From a virus: 44,800 bases of DNA. Both the position numbers and the translations under genes were made by a program. The notes beneath the pieces are model-generated. The model searched no databases. It had not been told where the DNA came from and saw only the letters and a program-made list of their open reading frames with translations. Below, in pieces: positions 1 through 44,800 of this stretch. Location: IMG/VR virus record IMGVR_UViG_3300010430_000111, positions 1-44,800 of that record; one strand, 5' to 3'. Each line of letters begins with the position of its first letter. The first letter of the stretch is position 1.

Positions 1-104
1 GAAGACAGGTATGGCCGGGAAGCAATTGACGATCTCAGGTATCTGAAATACCAGTCAAGGAAATATGGTATCGGGGATTATGAGTTATTGATATCGGATC
101 TTGA
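1..104. repeat. Terminal direct repeat (left copy)
   Basis: The first 104 bases are identical to the last 104 bases (44697-44800). The NinG-like reading frame continues in register from one copy into the other. This is what a circular assembly, or a circularly permuted genome cut at an arbitrary point, would give. It is unlikely to be a true packaging end because it lies inside a gene. Confidence 0.95.
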
Positions 105-3618: not shown

Positions 3619-4089
3619 ATGAGCTTTGACAGAAACGACCCAGACGACCTACTGGCGCTGAAGACCGAGATTAATACTGACCCTTTGGGGTTGGGGTATG
3701 ACACTGATGGCAATTCAGCCGTGCTGGTTGGTGTAATCAATGAGACAAATCCTGCTTTTATCGTTAGCAAGCCAAAGATAAGCTCTGCTGCTGTTAGGTC
3801 GGCAACAACCTTTGATGCGTATGACGGTGTGCTGGCTGATGCACAAGAGTGGCTTCGGTGGATGACCGGCTCAAATGGTTTTGAAGAAGAAAACCTGATA
3901 GTTACCCCTGATCTCCGAACGCAGCTCACAGGGCCGGGATCTGTAAGCATCTGGGCTGCTGGTGAAACAGTTGAAATGAATGCGGCCATGTTAGCTCTGA
4001 TAGATATTCCAGGGTCAAGGGCAGAAATATTGTGGGGATTCGGTACGTCAATCTCTGAGCAAGACTGGTATGCTGCGAGGGATTCGTAA
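3619..4089 (+). CDS. Conserved phage protein of the fibre block (156 aa)
   Basis: The N-terminus has the LKTEINTDPLGLGY motif common to a family of unnamed phage proteins found beside tail-fibre genes. The middle reads ATTFDAYDGV and EWLRWMTGSNG, and the C-terminus is helical. Function is unknown in the family. Its stop overlaps the next start, so it is co-translated with the following virion protein. Confidence 0.55.
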   Translation: MSFDRNDPDDLLALKTEINTDPLGLGYDTDGNSAVLVGVINETNPAFIVSKPKISSAAVRSATTFDAYDGVLADAQEWLRWMTGSNGFEEENLIVTPDLRTQLTGPGSVSIWAAGETVEMNAAMLALIDIPGSRAEILWGFGTSISEQDWYAARDS

Positions 4090-4652
4090 TGACATTACAA
4101 GTATCGGTCGGGACACAAATACGGTTCTTTGTTACCGGGTCATTTTCTCCAGCAGATGCTGGTACAAACTGGACTATAGGGACTCCGACTGATGTTGTTT
4201 TGACGCTATCAGCATTGGCGACAGCAGCAGGAAGGCAGTCAGCGAAAGTCGATCTTGGTGCTGCTCGCAGCGCATTATATGAGGTTCTTGGTTGTGTTGA
4301 TTTCACAGGCGAGACTCCATCAGCCGATGTCTCAGTTGACTACTATTGGGCACCATCCACGTCTACTACTACAGGCACTGGCAATGTAGCTGGCAATAGC
4401 GGGTCTGATGCAGCAGCTCCAGACGGTGCTGTAGGCTCTCCGACGTTGGCCGAATTTCTTGCCTTATGTCAATATATAGGCTCTCTCAGTACAAGTAATA
4501 ACGCATCTGTTCAAAATGGAATAGTTGGTGTTTTCGCTCCGTCTAGTCGCTATGGCCAATTAATTGTTGTGAACAATAGCGGCGATGCCTTTGAAGCAGA
4601 TGACGTTGAAATGCATCAGGTATTCAACCCGATAGATTATGCAGATGCGTAA
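4089..4652 (+). CDS. Probable virion structural protein (187 aa)
   Basis: A Ser/Thr/Ala-rich beta protein. Residues ~85-105 read VDYYWAPS followed by a Thr/Gly-rich turn, and the C-terminus ends in a short helix after VFNPIDYADA. The composition resembles surface or fibre-associated proteins. It overlaps both neighbours at ATG/stop junctions. No named domain recognised. Confidence 0.5.
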   Translation: MTLQVSVGTQIRFFVTGSFSPADAGTNWTIGTPTDVVLTLSALATAAGRQSAKVDLGAARSALYEVLGCVDFTGETPSADVSVDYYWAPSTSTTTGTGNVAGNSGSDAAAPDGAVGSPTLAEFLALCQYIGSLSTSNNASVQNGIVGVFAPSSRYGQLIVVNNSGDAFEADDVEMHQVFNPIDYADA

Positions 4653-24836: not shown

Positions 24837-25153
24837 ACCTTAGCAAGTACATTGGGTTATCTTACGATGATTATCATTGCTGGCAACTTGTACAAGCAAT
24901 TTATAAATCTGAGTTGGGAATTGAATTGCCTGATGAACCGATTCAGATGGTCGAGAGAAACAATTGGCTAGAGGTGGAGATAGAGCACGACCTGGACCTG
25001 TTACTATTTGAAACAATCGAAGGTCCGCATGTGGGATTAAGCGTCGGGGAAGGGCGCATGATTCATTCTGATAAAAACACTGGCGTGGTTATTGAGCGTT
25101 ACAAAAGAGCGAAATGGAAAAACAGACTCCACGGCAAATACCGGCACACGTAG
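24833..25153 (+). CDS. Tail-tip NlpC/P60-like peptidase (K-like)
   Basis: 106 residues. Cys in YDDYHCWQLVQ (residue ~16) fits the NlpC/P60 catalytic cysteine (D-C-x-x-L), and HVGLSVGEGRMIH supplies the histidine. The protein is shorter than the usual ~140 residues. Such tail peptidases cut peptidoglycan to help DNA entry. The ATG overlaps the previous stop by 4 bases. Confidence 0.75.
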   Translation: MNLSKYIGLSYDDYHCWQLVQAIYKSELGIELPDEPIQMVERNNWLEVEIEHDLDLLLFETIEGPHVGLSVGEGRMIHSDKNTGVVIERYKRAKWKNRLHGKYRHT

Positions 25154-28100
25154 TCGCCAATCCGTTCGGTGTCGCGCACAAAGCGCACATCTGGACCGAG
25201 GGCGACACGCTCAAAGATATACTTGTTTCCAGTGGCGTCAATCTTAATGATGGCGTCTGTGTTCTGGTCAATGGGCATCTTGTACCGAGAGAGTTCTGGC
25301 ACGCTGTACATCCTAAAACCGGGACACTGGTCACGGTTAACTGCCTGCCTCGGGGTGGCGATAGCGGTGCTCTTAGAGTTATTGCCACGATAGCTATTGT
25401 GGTTCTGGCAGCATGGGCTGGCGGTTATTTATTCGGACCTGCAGGTGGTTTCGGGGCAGGTGCTGGCGGCGGGGCATTGGGAACAAGTGCTCTTGGTGCG
25501 GCGTTTGTGTCGGCTGGTGTTTTTACCGTTGGCATGTTGGCTGTCAATGCCCTAATTCCATTATCTAACGAGATGGAAAGCGGGACAGAATCATCTAATG
25601 CCCTCTCTATCGCACCATCGCGCAATCTGATACGACCTTTCGGCGTGGCGCCGATGCTCTTGGGAACCCATAGAATATTTCCGCCTCAAGCAGCGAATCC
25701 TTTTACAGAACTAGGTGGTGATGATGAATATGTGACGATGATGTTCTATCTGTCGCATAAAGATTTGATTGTAGATTCAAGCACGGCAAAGCTGGGCGAT
25801 AACTTACTTTCTAATTATAGCGATTATCAGATTGAATATGATATCCGTGATTCGGCGGTTGATGGCCCGATCACGCTTTACAACCAGAACCATACTCAAG
25901 CGACGGTTGGAATCCTTATTCCAGAGGGTGCGGCTAACGTTATCGTTCAAGCAGCCGCAGCGAATACAACGTCGGTTGTATTGGATATCACTTTCCTTGA
26001 GGGTCTGGCTGACTACGATCATGACGGCACGGGTTCTGATCCAGCACAGTCAAACCTTGAAATAGGATATAGAGTTGTTGGGTCATCCCCGGGTACGTGG
26101 ACATCAGTAACTAGAAATCTATGGATAAGAAGGACTGATTTATTCAGGATATCGTACACAATAGACTTACCAAATGATGGTCAGTCTTATGAGATTGGCG
26201 CCTATTCAAATATTGCTATATCAGGCGCACCTGGAACGGGTATTTATAATAAAGCGACGTGGGCAACATTACACTCAAAACAAACAGGCGTTCCGGTCAA
26301 TGACGAGATGGCTGCGCTATGTGCTTTGAAGATAAAGGCGACCGATCAGTTGTCTGGAATCCCCGACACCTTTAACGTCGAAGCGACATCACGGTGTCCT
26401 GACTGGAACGGCGCCCTATGGGTGATGGCGGCGACGAATAATCCTGCTTCACTTTTAAGATATGTCTTAACAGGCAGTCAGGGTAATTCCAGAGCGTTAA
26501 CAGAAGACCGGATAGATGATGCGGCCTTTCAAGCGTTTTGGACGTGGTGTGATACCGAGGGTTATGCCTTTAATTTGTACGTGGATTTCAATACCACAGT
26601 CGACAGGCTTAGATCACAAATCGCTGCAGCTGGCAGAGCCAGATGTTTTGCCGTTGATGAAGTCTGGACGGTGGTTATTGATAAGCCACAGTCAACACTC
26701 ACTCAGCTATTCACCCCGCGTAATGTCATATCATTCAGCGGTGCAAGGGTTTACCCTGATGAGGTCCACGCGTTCCGGGTCCGGTTTATCAGCGAGGAAG
26801 AGGGATGGAAGAACTCCGAGAGGATTGTTTACAGACCTGGCTATGCTGCTGATGCGCTGGGTAGTCCAGCATTACTGCCCGCGACAAAGTTTGAGGTTCT
26901 AGAGTTTCCGGGCGTTACTGATCCTGACCAGATTTGGAACCTTGCGAGGTACTGGCATCAGGTCGCTGTATTACAACCTGAAACATTTGCTCTGACGATT
27001 GACAGTGAAAGCCTGGTTAACCTGCCCGGTGATAAAGTTACGTGGTCAGAAGATTCATTATTAATCGGGATTGGTGCAGCAAGGATAGAGTCTATTGTTG
27101 GGAACCCCGCAACGTCTATCACTCTGGACACAGAAATGTCGTTTAGCACATTAGCTGCTGACGAGTTTTACGGGTTCACGGTTCGCAGGGAAGGTACAGC
27201 TATTGGAACATTCAGTGTGGACACGCCTGCTGTCCAGCCGAATGATACCTTTGATCTGACTACGCCGACCGCTGTTGCTGTTGGGGATCTGATTACGTTC
27301 GGAGAGTTCGGGGCGATTACTCAAGACCTTTTAGTCAGAGATGTTTCACCCGGGCCTGATCTTACTGCCACGCTTACTTGTGTTCCATACGATGTGCAGG
27401 TCTACGATGTCGATAGTGATACACCACCTGTTTATGATCCTGTAATTACTGACCCGGTTGATAAGCCGGCGCCGGGTATTACCAGTGTTCGGTCAGGTGA
27501 GACGGGTATGCCGAGGGATGCGTCCGGCGTACTTATTCCGTTGATTGCTGTTTCATATGAAACATCAGGGAATACAAGGGAGTATGTTCATACAGTTATT
27601 ATATGGCGTCCAACAATCACTTCATCGCCTGAGGTCACAAATAGTACCCCATTCGATTATAAGTTGGCTTATACAATCAATGGTGGTTTTCATATCACCG
27701 GCGTAGAGGTCGGCGTCGAATATGAGATTAGGTTAGCGAATAGATACTACAGTCCGGCGCCGGATAGTGGGTACTTAAGTACCTGGACGGAAACAACCCA
27801 TACGGTTTTGCCAGATCAGGAAGTCCCTCCAGATGTTGACGGGACTGATCCGGCATTTACGCATACGCGTGATGATGTAACTGGTACGCGGACCTTTGAC
27901 TGGTCATTAGATCCTGCTGACACTTATAGAAGTCAGATAGTTGGATATAATATTCGCTGGGTTGGAGGTGCTACAGCAGATGATTCGCCCGAGGTCACAT
28001 GGGGTTCAATGTCTCCGCTTAACTGGGATTTACCAATACCAGATACTATCTATATAACGAATACATTATTTGAAAATCTTAACTATAGGTTTGCTATAAA

Positions 28101-31100
28101 GGCAATTAACAATGCAGGCAATGAGTCCGCAAATGCCACTTATATATATTATGCTCCTGATGATATTGCACCTCCGGTGTGGGTTGATGGGGCGTTCACT
28201 ACCAGCGCTGGGGCAGATGCGACCACGCAAATTGATCTATCTATCGACCCCGAGCCGATTGATGCAATCAGTGATATAGATCAATATGATTTGCACAATG
28301 CTGACACAGACGCGCTTGTGTTGTCTGATGTGATTGACGCGCAGACGATTTCTAACCTGACTCCTAATACTAATTATCCCTGGTACATCAGGGCGTATGA
28401 TGAGACAGGGAATGCCAGTAATTCAAACAGCTATCTTAGGAAGACAGATGCGAATGTCACAGAGGGGGCGGTCGGGCTAACCTCGATTTCGTTCTCGGAA
28501 GATGAAGACGCCGGGGATATGGCAATTACGCTGGGCACGTCTGGGAGAACCGGAGGTGGCAGCGGAAATATGATTGCCGTCAAAGTCGAGACTATAAACA
28601 GGACAACGGCAGGGGATGGGACGGCCTATTATGGTCGGGGTCTTTACGATGTTACCGGAGCGATGACTCGTGACAGCGCGACCGAAGGTAAGATCACAGA
28701 AACCAATATCGGTAACAGCACGGATACGGGTGATTGGCTTAGAATAGATTCAACAGGAGGAACTTATTCGGCAAACTATACCGGGTTGGTTCAGGCCATT
28801 GCCGACACGGCTGACACGGTAACTTTCTTATGGTCACAGACCGATGCCGGCAGTGATCCGGGTGTGGGCAATGATGACGATGGAGCAGCCGCTGCAGTTC
28901 ATACGGGCGTGGTTCAATGGTTGGGTACAGAGGATGACACCGACACCCAGACGATCAATATAAAATTGAAAGATCAGGCGTCTGCCAGTTCCAATGATAT
29001 GTTTGAGACCCAGATCGAATACGGGTCAGAAGATACGGGCGATGCGAACTGTACCATTGATACAATCAATTCGGCGCTCTGTTTAATTAACAGTTCAGGT
29101 TCAGGTGTTGCAGGCTATCAACAGGAGTCCAGCGGGGATCTGAAGGTTGTCATTGAAACCGAGGCGGCCAATGTAACACTGGTTAATGCCATCAAGGCCA
29201 CCAAGACGAATGAAGCTTGGGCAATCAGTGGAGCCAATGCCAGGCTATCACCCGAGGGGGGGAGCGGTCAGCAGCTACAGCCAAACAATGCAGATTCAAA
29301 CGGTGACTTCGGTACGGCAACAGTTATCGAGGCATTTGGCCCGTATGCCAGTATCCCGATTAGCTTCACCCAGACGGGCGACCATACGATTAATGCTAGG
29401 GCCAAGCGGCAGGCCGCGACGCATGAGAAGACACACTTTGCGCTTGAGCGTGCGCTTGTGTCTATTGGTGCGGATAGTAGTGGTTCGGGTGCTACACAGC
29501 TTATTGCACTGGCGGCAGATCATGGGCTAGTAGTAACTACTGACTACGTGTTCTTTGCCGGGACAGATTCTCCATCGTCAACTGCTGCTTATCAGTACAC
29601 TGCCGGGGCCAGTACGTCGTTCCCAGTCGTGGGTGTGCCAAACACAGACGAAATAGAGATTGCCAACACGGGGCTGGGTGCGGTTCCTGATGCTTCGGAC
29701 AGCGTTTGCTTTGGCGAGGCGAGGTCTATCGGTCTGCACTCGGGCGATATAGCAGAATTCCCCTCTCAGTCAAATGCGGGTTGGCGCTGGACAAGCAAGA
29801 ATTCAAGCGGCGTAGCCAGAGAGTTCTACATTGGCGCAGTGGGATCATATAACCTGAGGATGTATGAGCAGGACTACCAGGCGCAGATTGACAAGATTGC
29901 CATTGCACCGACGTCTGCTGGCTATAACCCGAACGTAGGGAACGATACAGCTAGCGCATCACTGGATGATAAATATGGCGCTTTGCAAAGCGCCTATTCA
30001 TCAGGGGTTGTGCCGGATAACCCTGAAAACCCGACGCTGCCGTCTGTTCCGTTACCCGATGATGAGATGGCTGCCACGACGCTTTACCCGCTTGTGGGTG
30101 ATTCAAATATCCCCATCGTCGGACTTGTCGTACAGGCAACCTTTCCGGGCACCGGACTGACTTATTCGACGTTTACCGTTTCTGCTAATGGCGAAAATAT
30201 AACGGGCGCAGTTCAGAATGACGGTACAACTATTTCGTTTACAGCATCAGGTTCGCAACCTGAGAATACGTTGTTTACTAATACCCTGATTGGTACGATC
30301 TACGATGAAAACCTTGTATTAAAAAAGATTGAATTGACTGGAACCGACTGGCAGTTCACGACGATTGATTCAGGCGCCGCTTCTACTTTAATGCGCGTTG
30401 ATTTCTCTAACCGCGAAGGCGGGTTTTATTCGGAAACAATGGTCAGAGAAGATTGGAATGTCAACGACCTGGGCTATGAATCAACTAACCCCTTTGTCGT
30501 CGGTCCCGATAGATACCAGACGGTCATTGTTGAAGATCCTGCAGACTTCGGGGCGCATGGGAACGTATTACGGATAACTCATCCAGCCTTTAACGGTGGC
30601 ATTGGGGCAAGTTGGCGAGCAGACTTTGGTGAAGGAACACCTTATACAAATGACGGTGATACAAAGGTTTATTTTGCTTACGACGTTTTTATAGATGCCA
30701 ATCATGACTGGGTAGAACATTGCAAGATGCCAGGATTAATGACGGGGACACGGTTGGAAGCGTCGCATAACTGGCAGGAAGTGCCGACGCCTGAAAGCGT
30801 TCTGGCCTTTAACGTTAGATTTAAAACAACCTCCCTCCCGGCCTTTCCTGCTAGGGGTGATGGGGCGTGTTGTTTGTATTATTACAATGCTTCAGAGGTG
30901 CGGGCTGACAAGTATTTCGACCCTATATCACCATCGCTGGAAGTCGCTGCAAATCAGTACACACAACCTAAAGCGCGATGGATTACCGTGGAGATCATGG
31001 TGGACTTGGGTACGCCTACGCCTTCTGCATCAGGCGCTGATGGAGAGATGAAAGCATGGGTTGTTGACCCCTCCCAATGGACGGGTGCTAAACTGGTTGC

Positions 31101-31269
31101 CAATTACACCGGCCAGTGGTTTCGGTCGGTGAACACCATGAACATTGATGGGATATGGTTTTATGACTATTACGGTGGCGACCCATCCAGCCCGACCAAT
31201 GAAGCAGACCATGAACAGTACAACTACTATGACAATTTTATCGTATCGACAGACCCGATAACGCACTAG
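25114..31269 (+). CDS. Tail tip attachment/host specificity protein (J-like) with C-terminal lyase-like domain
   Basis: 2051 residues. Residues ~1-80 form an I-like ubiquitin fold, and ~86-150 are hydrophobic and Gly-rich. About 150-780 is the J-type hub. About 780-1115 carry fibronectin-III-like modules (ISNLTPNTNYPWYIRAYDETGN). About 1115-1650 are beta-rich fibre. About 1655-1755 are SbsA/Ig-like. About 1759-2051 resemble a polysaccharide-lyase family 14 fold: VYFAYDVFIDANHDW, then CKMPGLMTG, RWITVEIMVDLGT, and IDGIWFYDYYGG closing with YYDNFIV. This region probably binds or cuts surface glycan. The gene overlaps the peptidase by 40 bases. Confidence 0.82.
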   Translation: MEKQTPRQIPAHVVANPFGVAHKAHIWTEGDTLKDILVSSGVNLNDGVCVLVNGHLVPREFWHAVHPKTGTLVTVNCLPRGGDSGALRVIATIAIVVLAAWAGGYLFGPAGGFGAGAGGGALGTSALGAAFVSAGVFTVGMLAVNALIPLSNEMESGTESSNALSIAPSRNLIRPFGVAPMLLGTHRIFPPQAANPFTELGGDDEYVTMMFYLSHKDLIVDSSTAKLGDNLLSNYSDYQIEYDIRDSAVDGPITLYNQNHTQATVGILIPEGAANVIVQAAAANTTSVVLDITFLEGLADYDHDGTGSDPAQSNLEIGYRVVGSSPGTWTSVTRNLWIRRTDLFRISYTIDLPNDGQSYEIGAYSNIAISGAPGTGIYNKATWATLHSKQTGVPVNDEMAALCALKIKATDQLSGIPDTFNVEATSRCPDWNGALWVMAATNNPASLLRYVLTGSQGNSRALTEDRIDDAAFQAFWTWCDTEGYAFNLYVDFNTTVDRLRSQIAAAGRARCFAVDEVWTVVIDKPQSTLTQLFTPRNVISFSGARVYPDEVHAFRVRFISEEEGWKNSERIVYRPGYAADALGSPALLPATKFEVLEFPGVTDPDQIWNLARYWHQVAVLQPETFALTIDSESLVNLPGDKVTWSEDSLLIGIGAARIESIVGNPATSITLDTEMSFSTLAADEFYGFTVRREGTAIGTFSVDTPAVQPNDTFDLTTPTAVAVGDLITFGEFGAITQDLLVRDVSPGPDLTATLTCVPYDVQVYDVDSDTPPVYDPVITDPVDKPAPGITSVRSGETGMPRDASGVLIPLIAVSYETSGNTREYVHTVIIWRPTITSSPEVTNSTPFDYKLAYTINGGFHITGVEVGVEYEIRLANRYYSPAPDSGYLSTWTETTHTVLPDQEVPPDVDGTDPAFTHTRDDVTGTRTFDWSLDPADTYRSQIVGYNIRWVGGATADDSPEVTWGSMSPLNWDLPIPDTIYITNTLFENLNYRFAIKAINNAGNESANATYIYYAPDDIAPPVWVDGAFTTSAGADATTQIDLSIDPEPIDAISDIDQYDLHNADTDALVLSDVIDAQTISNLTPNTNYPWYIRAYDETGNASNSNSYLRKTDANVTEGAVGLTSISFSEDEDAGDMAITLGTSGRTGGGSGNMIAVKVETINRTTAGDGTAYYGRGLYDVTGAMTRDSATEGKITETNIGNSTDTGDWLRIDSTGGTYSANYTGLVQAIADTADTVTFLWSQTDAGSDPGVGNDDDGAAAAVHTGVVQWLGTEDDTDTQTINIKLKDQASASSNDMFETQIEYGSEDTGDANCTIDTINSALCLINSSGSGVAGYQQESSGDLKVVIETEAANVTLVNAIKATKTNEAWAISGANARLSPEGGSGQQLQPNNADSNGDFGTATVIEAFGPYASIPISFTQTGDHTINARAKRQAATHEKTHFALERALVSIGADSSGSGATQLIALAADHGLVVTTDYVFFAGTDSPSSTAAYQYTAGASTSFPVVGVPNTDEIEIANTGLGAVPDASDSVCFGEARSIGLHSGDIAEFPSQSNAGWRWTSKNSSGVAREFYIGAVGSYNLRMYEQDYQAQIDKIAIAPTSAGYNPNVGNDTASASLDDKYGALQSAYSSGVVPDNPENPTLPSVPLPDDEMAATTLYPLVGDSNIPIVGLVVQATFPGTGLTYSTFTVSANGENITGAVQNDGTTISFTASGSQPENTLFTNTLIGTIYDENLVLKKIELTGTDWQFTTIDSGAASTLMRVDFSNREGGFYSETMVREDWNVNDLGYESTNPFVVGPDRYQTVIVEDPADFGAHGNVLRITHPAFNGGIGASWRADFGEGTPYTNDGDTKVYFAYDVFIDANHDWVEHCKMPGLMTGTRLEASHNWQEVPTPESVLAFNVRFKTTSLPAFPARGDGACCLYYYNASEVRADKYFDPISPSLEVAANQYTQPKARWITVEIMVDLGTPTPSASGADGEMKAWVVDPSQWTGAKLVANYTGQWFRSVNTMNIDGIWFYDYYGGDPSSPTNEADHEQYNYYDNFIVSTDPITH

Positions 31270-37801: not shown

Positions 37802-37968
37802 TGGATAAGCCACAATTTCCAAAAGATTATGCTGATTCACAGGGCCAGGTGCCAAGAGCCGAGCGCCGTGACAGCGAGGGCAACGTGGCGATGTGCGTAG
37901 CACTATTCGCCGTGGCAGGTGGAATTGTCGGGGCCGTGGCCATGTGGCTGTTTATGGGTGGGTGCTGA
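37801..37968 (+). CDS. Small membrane protein (55 aa)
   Basis: ATG 37801 overlaps the preceding stop. The N-terminal half is hydrophilic (PQFPKDYADSQGQVPRAERR) and the C-terminal half is one membrane segment (MCVALFAVAGGIVGAVAMWLF). Function unknown; the location suggests an early host-takeover peptide. Confidence 0.5.
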   Translation: MDKPQFPKDYADSQGQVPRAERRDSEGNVAMCVALFAVAGGIVGAVAMWLFMGGC

Positions 37969-37969
37969 T

Positions 37970-38329
37970 ATGGAAAAGCCAAAGGTAGGGCAGACAGTCT
38001 ACAGTCTGAATGTCGGGAATGCGGCTAGGAACACAAAACAGAAATTAACGCCCGTCACAGTATGCAAGGTTGGGAGAAAATATTTTTATGCAAAGAGGTA
38101 TAACTGGCCAGAGAATACCGCTATCAAGTACGACTTGCTCACATGGGGGGAGGTTACAGATTACTTCGTAAATAATAAATTATTTGAAAGCGTTGAAGCA
38201 TATGAAATAAGCAAAGAGAGGGGCGATTTAATCCGTAAGCTTGAATCAGTTTTTCGGCATGGGATAGCGGATAGATTGCTGCTATCACAACTCCGTGAAA
38301 TTATTGAGGTTATCAAACGACATGACTAG
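37970..38329 (+). CDS. Conserved phage protein (119 aa)
   Basis: ATG 37970 follows a GGGTGGG site. The product contains GQTVYSLNVGNAARN, QKLTPVTVCKVGRKYFYAK and a tail of helical turns; a beta-barrel-like N-terminus is suggested. It resembles small phage proteins of unknown function. The 17 bases across its start are repeated exactly at 38329-38345. Confidence 0.55.
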   Translation: MEKPKVGQTVYSLNVGNAARNTKQKLTPVTVCKVGRKYFYAKRYNWPENTAIKYDLLTWGEVTDYFVNNKLFESVEAYEISKERGDLIRKLESVFRHGIADRLLLSQLREIIEVIKRHD

Positions 38330-38723: not shown

Positions 38724-38805
38724 ATGGATATTTTCAAATCCTGCATGGATATCTTGATGAAAGGGCGGAAGAACTTAAAAAATGTTGCTAAAAGTGGGGT
38801 TTATA

Positions 38806-38813
<8 letters not shown>
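38724..38813 (+). CDS. Small leader peptide before the PAPS-reductase-like gene (29 aa)
   Basis: ATG 38724 has an ideal ATAGGAGA site. The peptide starts MDIFKSCMDILMKGRKNLKN and is helical. Its stop overlaps the start region of the next gene, so it may couple translation of the cassette. Confidence 0.4.
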
Positions 38814-40436
<1,623 letters not shown>

Positions 40437-40453
40437 CGAAAGGAGACGGGGAG

Positions 40454-40852
40454 ATGAAGATAATTACGCTTGAGGATATTAAGGAAACAGAAAGGCAGGT
40501 GCATTGCCCTTCTGGAGGGTTTATTAGTTACAGATACTTGCTCCGAGATGATGGTATGGGGTTTTCAATGAGTATGACGGTAATACCGAAAGGAGAGTTT
40601 CAACGCTGGCATTATAAGAATCATTTGGAGGCATGTTTCTGTGTATCCGGGGCTGGGATTATTGTAGACAATGGTACAGGCGCTGAATTTGAAATCAAAC
40701 CTACAACTGTTTATGTGCTTGATGGGTATGAAGACCACTCGTTTAAAGCAATTGAGGATACCGCTCTGATTTGTATTTTTAACCCTCCATTGATTGGCGC
40801 AGAAGTTCACAGTGATGACGGTTCTTATCCTTTGGAGGCTTGTAATGAATGA
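40454..40852 (+). CDS. Ectoine-synthase (EctC)-like cupin
   Basis: ATG 40454 follows AGGAGA. The 132-residue frame matches EctC along its length: DDGMGFSMSMTVIPKG, HYKNHLEACFCVSGAG, TTVYVLDGYEDHSF, and FNPPLIGAEVHSDDGSYPL. The iron ligands of EctC (Glu, Tyr and His) are at Glu59, Tyr87 and His95, with the family spacing kept. EctC closes the ectoine ring from N-acetyl-diaminobutyrate; no EctA/EctB is encoded here. The substrate may be different. It overlaps the ParB-like gene. Confidence 0.78.
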   Translation: MKIITLEDIKETERQVHCPSGGFISYRYLLRDDGMGFSMSMTVIPKGEFQRWHYKNHLEACFCVSGAGIIVDNGTGAEFEIKPTTVYVLDGYEDHSFKAIEDTALICIFNPPLIGAEVHSDDGSYPLEACNE

Positions 40853-41393
40853 CTATAAATCCCCTGTTTATAATGTTTTGGCTGTACCGATTGAGAAGAT
40901 AACGGCAAATGACTATAACCCTAATGCGGTTGCTCCTCCTGAGATGGCGCTGCTTGAAATATCTATTTGGGAAGACGGATATACACAGCCAGTTGTTGCC
41001 TGCTATGACGAAGAAAATGATATGTATGTTGTCGTTGATGGGTTTCATAGGTACTTAACAATAAGAAATAGCAAGCGTATTTATGACAGGGAGAAAGGGT
41101 TGCTCCCGATAGTGCTTATTGATAAAGCGATAGGTGACAGAATGGCGTCTACTATTCGCCATAACAGGGCAAGAGGAACTCATAATGTAGAGTTAATGAG
41201 TACGATTGTTTCTGAGTTGGTTGAGATGGGTAAAGGGGATCATTGGATATGTAAGCATATTGGCATGAGTGTTGATGAGCTTCTTAGGCTGAAGCAGATA
41301 ACAGGGGTTGCAGCCTTGTTTGCCAACAGGGATTTTTCTGATAGTTGGGTTGCTGATGAAATATTGGAAGATGAGTTAGATGAGGCCGTCTGA
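40845..41393 (+). CDS. ParB-like protein (IbrB-like)
   Basis: 182 residues from ATG 40845, with GGAGG at -8. The ParB/Srx pattern is YNPNAVAPPEMALLEISIWEDGYTQPVV, then VVDGFHRYLTIRNS with the GxHR motif. A C-terminal part reads HWICKHIGMSVDELLRLKQ, as in ParB HTH regions. IbrB in Escherichia coli works with IbrA; the partner gene lies upstream in this cassette. It probably binds DNA or a nucleotide. No partitioning partner is present. Confidence 0.78.
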   Translation: MNDYKSPVYNVLAVPIEKITANDYNPNAVAPPEMALLEISIWEDGYTQPVVACYDEENDMYVVVDGFHRYLTIRNSKRIYDREKGLLPIVLIDKAIGDRMASTIRHNRARGTHNVELMSTIVSELVEMGKGDHWICKHIGMSVDELLRLKQITGVAALFANRDFSDSWVADEILEDELDEAV

Positions 41394-41802
41394 TATAAAG
41401 CGCGTGTATCGGCCGTATTATGACTGGGAGGAAATTAATCATAATATGTGGGGGTGTGTCCAAGATCGGAAGCTATGGGTTAGGAGGGCCGTTAAATTCA
41501 CATCGGATCATAAGAAATATGGCAGATTTATGATGCGCGTTATAAATGAATGGACAGTTAGTTGTGAGAATGCTTTGACTGATACAACAATCAATCGAAA
41601 GGCATGGGTTGGACATGCGGCTGTAGCTTTGGCTATCGGGTGTCCTGAGGATATTGTAAGGGAAGCATGGGGGATGTTGACGGATGAGCAGCGGCTACTG
41701 GCGAATAAAGAGGCAGAACGGGCTATCAGATTGTGGGAATACAACTACTGTTGCAAGGATTCAAACTTATGTGAGGACTTGGACGGAGAGATGTTACTTT
41801 GA
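41380..41802 (+). CDS. Conserved protein of the IbrAB-type cassette (140 aa)
   Basis: ATG 41380 overlaps the ParB-like gene by 14 bases. The pattern RVYRPYYDWEEINHNMWG, then VGHAAVALAIGCPEDIVREAW and LTDEQRLLANKEAERAI, resembles unnamed phage proteins found after ParB genes. It is helical, with no catalytic motif. It is likely an accessory of the cassette. Confidence 0.65.
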   Translation: MRPSDIKRVYRPYYDWEEINHNMWGCVQDRKLWVRRAVKFTSDHKKYGRFMMRVINEWTVSCENALTDTTINRKAWVGHAAVALAIGCPEDIVREAWGMLTDEQRLLANKEAERAIRLWEYNYCCKDSNLCEDLDGEMLL

Positions 41803-42007
41803 AGGCATACCAGATGAGGTGAGTAATAGTCTTATGAAGTCAGAAAGGGTGCCGTCTTACAAGGCAATCGCCATTGCAATATTAAGTAATGACTCATCCA
41901 TGCGATCTTTGGGTTTTAGTGGGCCAGTATCATCATGGTTTTATGTGCTCAAATCAATTAGAAAGCCAAGAAGTAACCAAGGGGATTTGTTCGATGGATC
42001 TATTTGA
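41771..42007 (+). CDS. Small DUF3440-C-terminal-like protein (78 aa)
   Basis: GTG 41771 is preferred, with AAGGA upstream. The middle VPSYKAIAIAILSNDSSMRSLGF resembles VASWKRFAITILKNDHTCKYMGL at the C-terminus of the PAPS-reductase-like protein in this cassette. It looks like a stand-alone copy of that helical domain. It overlaps the genes on both sides. Confidence 0.55.
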   Translation: MRTWTERCYFEGIPDEVSNSLMKSERVPSYKAIAIAILSNDSSMRSLGFSGPVSSWFYVLKSIRKPRSNQGDLFDGSI

Positions 42008-44440: not shown

Positions 44441-44800
44441 AAGGCAGAAGCTAAAACTTAAAGCCTGGAATCTGTTTTCCGAATGGGTTAGGCGCCGGGA
44501 TGCTGATAAAGACGGGTATGTTAACTGCGTAACGTGTGGGAAGTTGGCACACTGGAAGGGTGACGGTATGCAGGCCGGACATTTTATTGCGGGCCGTACT
44601 TTGTCGTTACTGTTTGATGAAAGGAACTGCCATACTCAATGCTACGGGTGTAACGTGGGAAGAAACGGAAGTTATGTAGAATATTTCATTTACATGGAAG
44701 ACAGGTATGGCCGGGAAGCAATTGACGATCTCAGGTATCTGAAATACCAGTCAAGGAAATATGGTATCGGGGATTATGAGTTATTGATATCGGATCTTGA
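44427..44800 (+). CDS. ninG: NinG-like recombination protein, N-terminal part
   Basis: ATG 44427 overlaps the preceding gene. Two cysteine pairs, CVTCGKLAHWK and CHTQCYGC, with an AGHFIAGR stretch between, match the NinG zinc domain. The reading frame runs to the end of the window and continues at 1-135. NinG aids phage recombination by resolving or processing branched DNA. Confidence 0.85.
   Translation, partial: MKKSKRQKLKLKAWNLFSEWVRRRDADKDGYVNCVTCGKLAHWKGDGMQAGHFIAGRTLSLLFDERNCHTQCYGCNVGRNGSYVEYFIYMEDRYGREAIDDLRYLKYQSRKYGIGDYELLISDL
44697..44800. repeat. Terminal direct repeat (right copy)
   Basis: Identical to positions 1-104; it shows where the circular sequence overlaps itself. Confidence 0.95.

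Follow-up and report, generated by a model that had tools for sequence, protein, structure and literature searches.

The window, i.e. the whole stretch of DNA analysed here, is 44,800 bases long and corresponds to a virus record. It carries an exact direct terminal repeat of 104 bp, which gives it the look of a complete circular assembly, and it encodes terminase, portal, major head protein and tape measure as well as RecT. Its origin as a virus record, the terminal repeat and the genes for terminase, portal and major head protein identify the window as a phage genome that is apparently complete. A very long protein is encoded at the end of the tail gene region, and a protein with a phage ProQ C-terminal-like domain is also present (Table 1).

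The gene under study encodes an EctC-like cupin and stands second in a conserved cassette of five genes, IbrA / EctC-like / IbrB / X / Y. A preliminary description, made from the window sequence, had pictured it as a solitary gene. That picture is superseded, as the cupin belongs to this cassette and in many loci is one protein with IbrB.

Table 1. Coordinates of the features discussed, in the window and in other loci
Feature	Record	Position	Strand	Description
Direct terminal repeat	window	1-104 = 44697-44800		exact, 104 bp
Protein at the end of the tail gene region	window	25114-31269		2,051 residues
Phage ProQ C-terminal-like domain protein	window	37964-38329		PF24203, 58.9 bits
IbrA-like	window	38782-40122	+	446 aa; PAPS-reductase-type ATP pyrophosphatase domain and DUF3440
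GIY-YIG homing-endonuclease-like ORF	window	40119-40436	+	between IbrA and cupin
EctC-like cupin	window	40454-40852	+	open frame, 132 aa; PF06339, 146.6 bits
IbrB-like	window	40845-41393	+	ParB-domain protein; phrog_2159, 255.5 bits
X	window	41380-41802	+	helical protein, 140 aa
Y	window	41684-42007	+	107 aa; separate copy of the C-terminal DUF3440 tail of IbrA
GIY-YIG homing-endonuclease-like ORF	L131	2532-2852
GIY-YIG homing-endonuclease-like ORF	L002	8890-9264
Orphan EctC-like gene	L077, Aliiroseovarius plasmid	4001-4381
SNF2-type helicase	L062	2027-3262
SNF2-type helicase	L064	3269-4492
SNF2-type helicase	L065	6653-7849
Gene row with IbrA-like protein	L067, Microbacterium phage Hendrix	2089-5637

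The cassette and its cupin in the window

The IbrA-like protein matches DUF3440 (PF11922, 188 bits), PAPS_reduct (PF01507, 44.7 bits) and phrog_2302 (358.5 bits), and is 68-69% identical to the copies of phages XCL1123 and Gaia. The start of the IbrB gene overlaps the end of the cupin gene; the IbrB protein is 79% identical to the XCL1123 copy and scores 17.7 bits against PF02195, under the cut-off of 26.3. X of the window matches nothing in PHROG, NCBIfam or PADLOC and nothing significantly in Pfam, and Y matches positions 118-174 of DUF3440 at 25.5 bits (cut-off 25). PADLOC scanning of five window proteins gave weak DndC and SspD matches to IbrA and none for the other four. The GIY-YIG ORF (phrog_314, homing endonuclease, E 7.7e-7; TIGR01453, 19.1 bits, under the cut-off of 56) is probably not part of the working cassette. 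It stands at the IbrA/cupin junction in the window and at the IbrB/X junction in Gaia, and these different positions suggest repeated invasion. Outside the window, ORFs of this kind were noted in L131 and L002.

The trio of IbrA, cupin and IbrB was also found by tblastn in the records of XCL1123, Gaia and Nebkiss. These are cultured phages, with M. smegmatis as the host of Gaia and Nebkiss and P. marina as that of XCL1123. The GenBank records of Gaia and XCL1123 name the product “ectoine synthase/ParB multidomain protein”, and the pairing of the cupin and ParB domains had thus already been spotted by annotators.

The earlier assignment of the gene product to the EctC family, with all three iron ligands, is borne out. 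A match to Pfam PF06339 (Ectoine_synth; E 5.8e-43, cut-off 27 bits) covers the whole cupin, which also matches NCBIfam PRK13290 at 143.8 bits (cut-off 128), and its sequence matches the solved EctC structures 5bxx (E 3.6e-29) and 5onm/5onn/5ono; taken together, these scores put the family match far beyond chance. Alignment to EctC places the iron ligands at Glu59, Tyr87 and His95, the P. lautus ligands being Glu57, Tyr84 and His92 (PMC6344544, in extract). Ligand spacing, described before as unchanged, is indeed identical to that of the S. alaskensis chain, but the P. lautus chain has one residue fewer between the Glu and Tyr ligands. The C-terminal ending noted earlier, FNPPLxGxEVH, is present as FNPPLIGAEVH. 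A GTG lies in frame 39 bases upstream of the cupin ATG (ORF 40415-40852); the start was placed at the ATG since relatives begin there. The cupin falls in no PHROGs family. The reported absence of EctA and EctB was also reproduced, in that no window ORF of at least 40 aa matches the V. pelagius proteins, used as single queries, at E <= 10.

Structure prediction, which the preliminary description had proposed as a check, returned the EctC fold. The AlphaFold model of the cupin, from 41 aligned relatives, has a mean pLDDT of 92.4, and its top PDB matches are ectoine synthases: 5bxx (TM-score 0.83/0.97, Z 19.8, rmsd 0.9 over 113 residues), with the P. lautus EctC structures at Z 18.7. The best cupin other than EctC reaches Z 13.4.

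Linkage across viruses, bacteria and plasmids

Scanning viral_contigs with the window cupin as a single sequence found no relative. With an alignment of three phage cupins, 56 loci were recovered from IMG/VR, and IbrA and IbrB adjoin the cupin in nearly all of them; X is present in 55 of the 58 EctC loci analysed, window included. When the search was reversed, with X as the probe, 73 of the best 80 of 206 loci carried the cupin. Among the seven of these best 80 that lack it, five have the order IbrB-X-IbrA with a divergent IbrA, and two (L174 and L184) start near the locus end. X occurs in cupin-less cassettes of this order at L134, L139, L141, L162 and L195. A broader EctC alignment probe gave the best 80 of 102 viral loci.

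Loci whose cupin-holding ORFs agree in their last 110 residues were counted once, leaving 119 distinct viral EctC-like loci among the matches listed; the cupin, X and EctC scans rank by similarity to cassette members, and lower-ranked relatives fall outside this and the following counts. One of the 119, L196 of viral_contigs, is a bacterial-type ectB-ectC contig and is excluded from the 118 cassette-type loci. Among the matches listed, these 118 hold IbrB in 117 cases, X in 114, IbrA in 112 and a separate Y in 99; cupin and IbrB form a single ORF in 59, and IbrA lies upstream of the cupin ORF at a median distance of -3 bases (109 cases). Three loci (L003, L004 and L040, the last a second record of Gaia) were left out of the alignment counts.

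All but one of the gaps in IbrB, IbrA or X over the 118 loci (among the matches listed) abut a locus end. IbrA is not visible in six loci: in four, the cupin ORF starts no more than 65 bases from the left locus end, and in L020 and L237 the locus ends at most about 740 bases downstream of the cupin. In three X-less loci (L006, L020 and L021) the cupin or IbrB runs to the locus end. The fourth, L248, is a real exception, with IbrA, cupin and IbrB followed by about 3.5 kb in which neither X nor Y is found.

A control probe built from ect-cluster EctC recovered only three viral loci, namely two cassettes and one locus with ectB, and queries with V. pelagius EctA and EctB found neither gene in any viral cassette locus. 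MT835761 was considered as a phage cassette and rejected; an EctB-like aminotransferase frame, seen on reading the translations, stands just before the cupin gene, and the record was therefore counted as an ect-cluster. Outside the cassette, no protein family of at least 110 aa occurs in more than nine of the 58 clustered loci. The cupin is very probably a component of the cassette as opposed to a free-standing ectoine synthase.

The cupin alignment matches 41 loci in bacterial genomes. Two of these, on MAG contigs of Saprospiraceae (L080) and Planctomycetota (L081), hold the whole cassette, and the other 39 have an EctC-like gene with neither EctAB nor Ibr genes in the fetched flanks. Plasmid spread of the cupin-IbrB fusion was considered and rejected: 762 plasmid records match the Gaia fusion, and none reaches 80% coverage. 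As a separate observation, an orphan EctC-like gene on an Aliiroseovarius plasmid adjoins genes for beta-ketoacyl synthase, acyl-CoA dehydrogenase and AMP-binding proteins. HMM searches of 11 EctC-less Ibr phage loci found no cupin, no X and no separate Y.

Diversity and conserved residues of the cassette proteins

The phylogenetic tree comprised 60 cassette cupins, 41 orphan EctC-like proteins and nine ect-cluster EctC proteins, an uneven sample in that cassette-type patterns had served to retrieve 39 of the 41 orphans. All 60 cassette cupins fall into one clade (SH-aLRT 99.8, bootstrap 100) on a branch of 0.40, apart from the orphans, and the ect-cluster proteins form a separate one (79.6/75), with which the clade of the window cupin does not group.

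In P. lautus numbering, Ser23, Arg25, Thr40, Tyr52, Glu57 and Tyr84 show no substitution, where present, in the 118 cassette cupins, and His92 shows one. The iron ligands are also kept in all 41 aligned orphans, and so the three ligands are not diagnostic of ectoine synthase. A different pattern is seen at Trp21, a “piston-like” residue that is invariant in 437 ect-cluster EctC proteins and whose replacement in W21A leaves 9.7% activity (PMC6344544, in extract). The corresponding residue of the window cupin is Phe23. Within the tree, a Trp near this site is found in all nine ect-cluster proteins and 40 of the 41 orphans, and in none of the 60 cassette cupins. In the larger set, one of 115 readable cassette cupins has a Trp within eight residues before Ser23, and 113 have Phe or Tyr at the site (Phe in the ect-cluster register in 75; Phe in 37 and Tyr in one in a shifted register, which is that seen in orphans; neither in two). 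Since Phe can stand in for Trp in cation-pi contacts, the loss of Trp does not by itself exclude ectoine formation. Asn38 is mostly Thr or His in cassette cupins, from which nothing is concluded, because His is also present in eight of nine ect-cluster proteins. Overall, the residue counts indicate that the core of the EctC chemistry is kept and the substrate-positioning aromatic is changed. With regard to the family tree, the other check proposed in the preliminary description, the separate clade and the Trp-to-Phe change speak largely against an ectoine synthase, while the fold and core are still those of EctC.

The IbrA proteins linked to EctC also form their own clade (19 of 19, support 1.0). 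They keep the SGGKDS ATP-pyrophosphatase loop, and Cys106, Cys107, Cys114, Cys125, Cys288 and Cys421 are present in 19 of 19; in the residue counts listed, 16 EctC-less IbrA have other residues at 106, 114 and 288. In IbrB, the motif DGFHR has D65, G66, H68 and R69 invariant in all 22 aligned sequences, and we take it, as a lead only, to resemble the DGQHR motif of DndB-type proteins. The IbrB profile matches ParB (E 5.9e-6) and Noc (E 7.2e-5) in the PDB; a “cap repeat” chain, matched in part and over a short stretch, outscores both. IbrB also shows weak similarity to SbnI (E 0.012) and SerK (E 0.062).

X has a confident helical AlphaFold model (pLDDT 89.1). Foldseek comparison of the model with the PDB gave no fold match at E <= 0.001, and the X profile found nothing convincing among PDB sequences (best E 0.27). 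One of 21 X members matches a PHROG, of unknown function. Judged from its sequences, X is a new helical family. X homologues were also noted in Pseudomonas phage Amjad_SA and Microcystis phage Mwe-JY13 (listed with L266; L267), in the latter between ParB-like and PAPS-like genes. The IbrA tail of L195 resembles Y by eye, suggesting that Y may be left over from an older third gene.

Possible functions and relation to known systems

As the cupin is one fixed part of the cassette, it probably carries out ring-closing chemistry on a molecule other than ectoine. Retention of the catalytic core and of the EctC fold suggests the same type of cyclisation step; its substrate would be a different one, given the changed aromatic, the fusion to IbrB and the lack of EctAB. 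It is reasonably likely that the cupin is still an iron-dependent cyclising or dehydrating enzyme, the activity being predicted. Ectoine synthesis is an unlikely role; with a fold and catalytic core that are those of EctC, a related cyclisation would be the best guess from sequence and model. Of the two substrates raised in the preliminary description, a different compound is therefore still a possibility, while a solitary ectoine-type enzyme acting on a host precursor was proposed without sight of the cassette neighbours and does not fit them.

The explanation that we prefer, although we hold it with a little less than even confidence, is that the cupin, as an iron-dependent cyclising enzyme, joins IbrA and IbrB in a modification pathway of the phage, with nucleic acid as the most likely target. 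The cassette itself is well supported, and the target is what we infer from it. The ATP-pyrophosphatase IbrA would activate, assemble or join the cupin substrate, which would differ from that of EctC and be supplied within the cassette, and IbrB, as a nucleotide- or DNA-binding protein, would present it. The cupin, as an Fe(II) Lewis-acid enzyme, would polarise an amide-type carbonyl and close a ring with loss of water, like EctC, in which the amide carbonyl binds Fe(II), the amine attacks and water is lost (PMC6344544, in extract). The likeliest target would be a nucleobase of phage DNA (or a nucleotide or tRNA), in a modification pathway as opposed to osmolyte synthesis.

The leaning towards nucleic acid comes from genomic neighbours. 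In the window and some relatives the cassette is close to replication and recombination genes (RecT, DnaB and YqaJ), and in three phages with different hosts an EctC-less IbrA/IbrB pair has an SNF2-type helicase gene next to it or close by. Modification-like genes also accompany distant IbrA homologues, which are only 24-28% identical to the window IbrA. In Microbacterium phage Hendrix, genes annotated as glycosyltransferase, methyltransferase and acetyltransferase are followed by an IbrA-like “adenylyltransferase”, a row that is a candidate modification cluster; the glycosyltransferase and methyltransferase genes have no Pfam match. Phage DNA hypermodification uses ATP-dependent ligases, often with ParB-domain genes nearby (PMC12783734, in extract). 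A part for the cassette cupin in nucleic-acid modification is accordingly proposed as tentative. A narrower version, in which the cassette carries out nucleic-acid hypermodification and the cupin closes a cyclic-amidine (ectoine-like) ring on a base side chain attached by IbrA and IbrB, is speculative and on balance improbable; no report of EctC chemistry on nucleic acid was found in the literature searched. If true, it would account for one set of the EctC-like proteins that lie outside ect clusters.

Several observations weigh against the preferred explanation. The IbrA chemistry rests on DndC- and PAPS-reductase-like similarity well under family cut-offs, X is without a fold relative and occurs in EctC-less IbrB-X-IbrA cassettes, and L248 has IbrA, cupin and IbrB but neither X nor Y. 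In addition, the described role of IbrAB, activation of prophage eib genes, would fit a regulator.

A first alternative, which we consider doubtful, is that the cassette serves to make or break down a free compound, either nucleotide-like or derived from an amino acid, for counter-defence or host control, and that nucleic acid is not the target. Small molecules are the substrates of EctC, of PAPS reductases and of several ParB/sulfiredoxin relatives, and the weak similarity of IbrB to SbnI and SerK would be in keeping with these precedents. However, no compound is pointed to by any analysis, and no export, uptake or second biosynthetic gene is regularly found alongside the cassette, as follows from the scarcity of shared non-cassette families described above.

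It is also unlikely that the cupin is a regulatory sensor, binding a small molecule and tuning IbrB and IbrA as transcription co-activators of the phage or host. Such a role is suggested by the fused cupin-IbrB ORFs, for which cupin domains fused to helix-turn-helix proteins are a precedent, by the resemblance of IbrB to the DNA-binding proteins ParB and Noc, and by the naming of IbrAB for eib activation and its annotation as co-activator in a phage record. IbrAB was reportedly described by Sandt in 2002 as activating prophage eib genes. Yet the iron ligands and the substrate-binding residues Arg25, Thr40 and Tyr52 are almost always kept, which is beyond the needs of a sensor, and the SGGKDS motif of IbrA is intact.

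That the cupin is a genuine ectoine synthase, an auxiliary metabolic gene product converting host N-gamma-acetyl-diaminobutyrate to ectoine and aiding salt-stressed infected cells, is very improbable. In its favour are the EctC fold and active-site core, the complementation of an ectC mutant by an orphan P. syringae EctC (PMC5924519, in extract), and a 2026 study of an estuary virome that interprets viral ectoine synthase as osmoprotective (PMC13079714, in extract). Against this stand the absence of ectA and ectB from the window and every cassette locus, the strict linkage to IbrAB, the clade apart from ect-cluster EctC, and the absence of Trp21, which EctC needs for its activity, from all 60 cassette cupins in the tree. 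Because all but one of the 119 loci among the matches listed are IbrAB cassettes, the osmoprotection reading is doubtful for this viral group. A functionless phage-borne relic or passenger, which has nothing in its favour beyond the lack of a known phenotype, is extremely improbable in view of the near-invariant core over 118 diverse cupins and the fixed cassette.

The EctC-type Ibr cassette of phages is tightly linked, has an enzymatic core, and is new, in that no description of the five-gene cassette was found in the PMC literature searched. IbrA is not mentioned in the accessible parts of BREX and Dnd surveys (PMC12839542 and PMC10853773, respectively), nor is ectoine in those of the former, and the text of PMC12783734 contains none of the terms “ectoine”, “cupin” and “PAPS”. 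With the cassette, EctC-like proteins outside ect clusters gain a strong genetic context, and IbrAB, otherwise a “co-activator”, gains an enzymatic partner with a defined active site. The cultured phages Gaia, Nebkiss and XCL1123 make the function of the cassette testable.

The preferred modification pathway can be compared with several known systems. The CmoA/CmoX/CmoY cytosine hypermodification of phages likewise includes an ATP-dependent, AMP-forming enzyme, often with a ParB-domain gene nearby (PMC12783734, in extract), but the enzyme families are other ones. DndABCDE phosphorothioation also combines an ATP pyrophosphatase, DndC, with a ParB-superfamily protein, DndB (PMC10853773, in extract). 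Membership of the Dnd system was nevertheless rejected, as the window IbrA scores 21 bits against the DndC equivalog TIGR03183, far below its cut-off of 290.4. Like the IbrA/IbrB pairs of phages, plasmids and prophages, the window has, within one cassette, a protein with a PAPS-reductase domain and DUF3440 and another with a ParB domain; it shares with these pairs the IbrA domain order, the IbrB sequence and the adjacency of the two genes. The 11 EctC-less Ibr phage loci compared differ in having no cupin, X or separate Y, and their IbrA lies outside the EctC-linked clade and its Cys set.

Bacterial orphan EctC-like proteins (Czech 2018/2019), whose function Czech and co-workers call unresolved (PMC5924519 and PMC6344544, in extract), resemble the cassette cupins in belonging to the EctC family and in lacking ectAB, and differ from them by the Trp near the active site in 40 of 41 aligned and the lack of IbrA/IbrB in the fetched flanks. 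We suspect a link to the cassette for the “group 1” orphan EctC of M. abscessus (PMC5924519, in extract). Finally, EctC itself (S. alaskensis 5bxx, P. lautus 5onm/5onn/5ono) shares with the cassette cupins the cupin fold, the iron ligands, Ser23, Arg25, Thr40, Tyr52 and the C-terminal lid motif FNPPLxGxEVH, whereas the cassette cupins stand without ectAB, adjoin or are fused to IbrB, have Phe in place of Trp21, and form a clade of their own.
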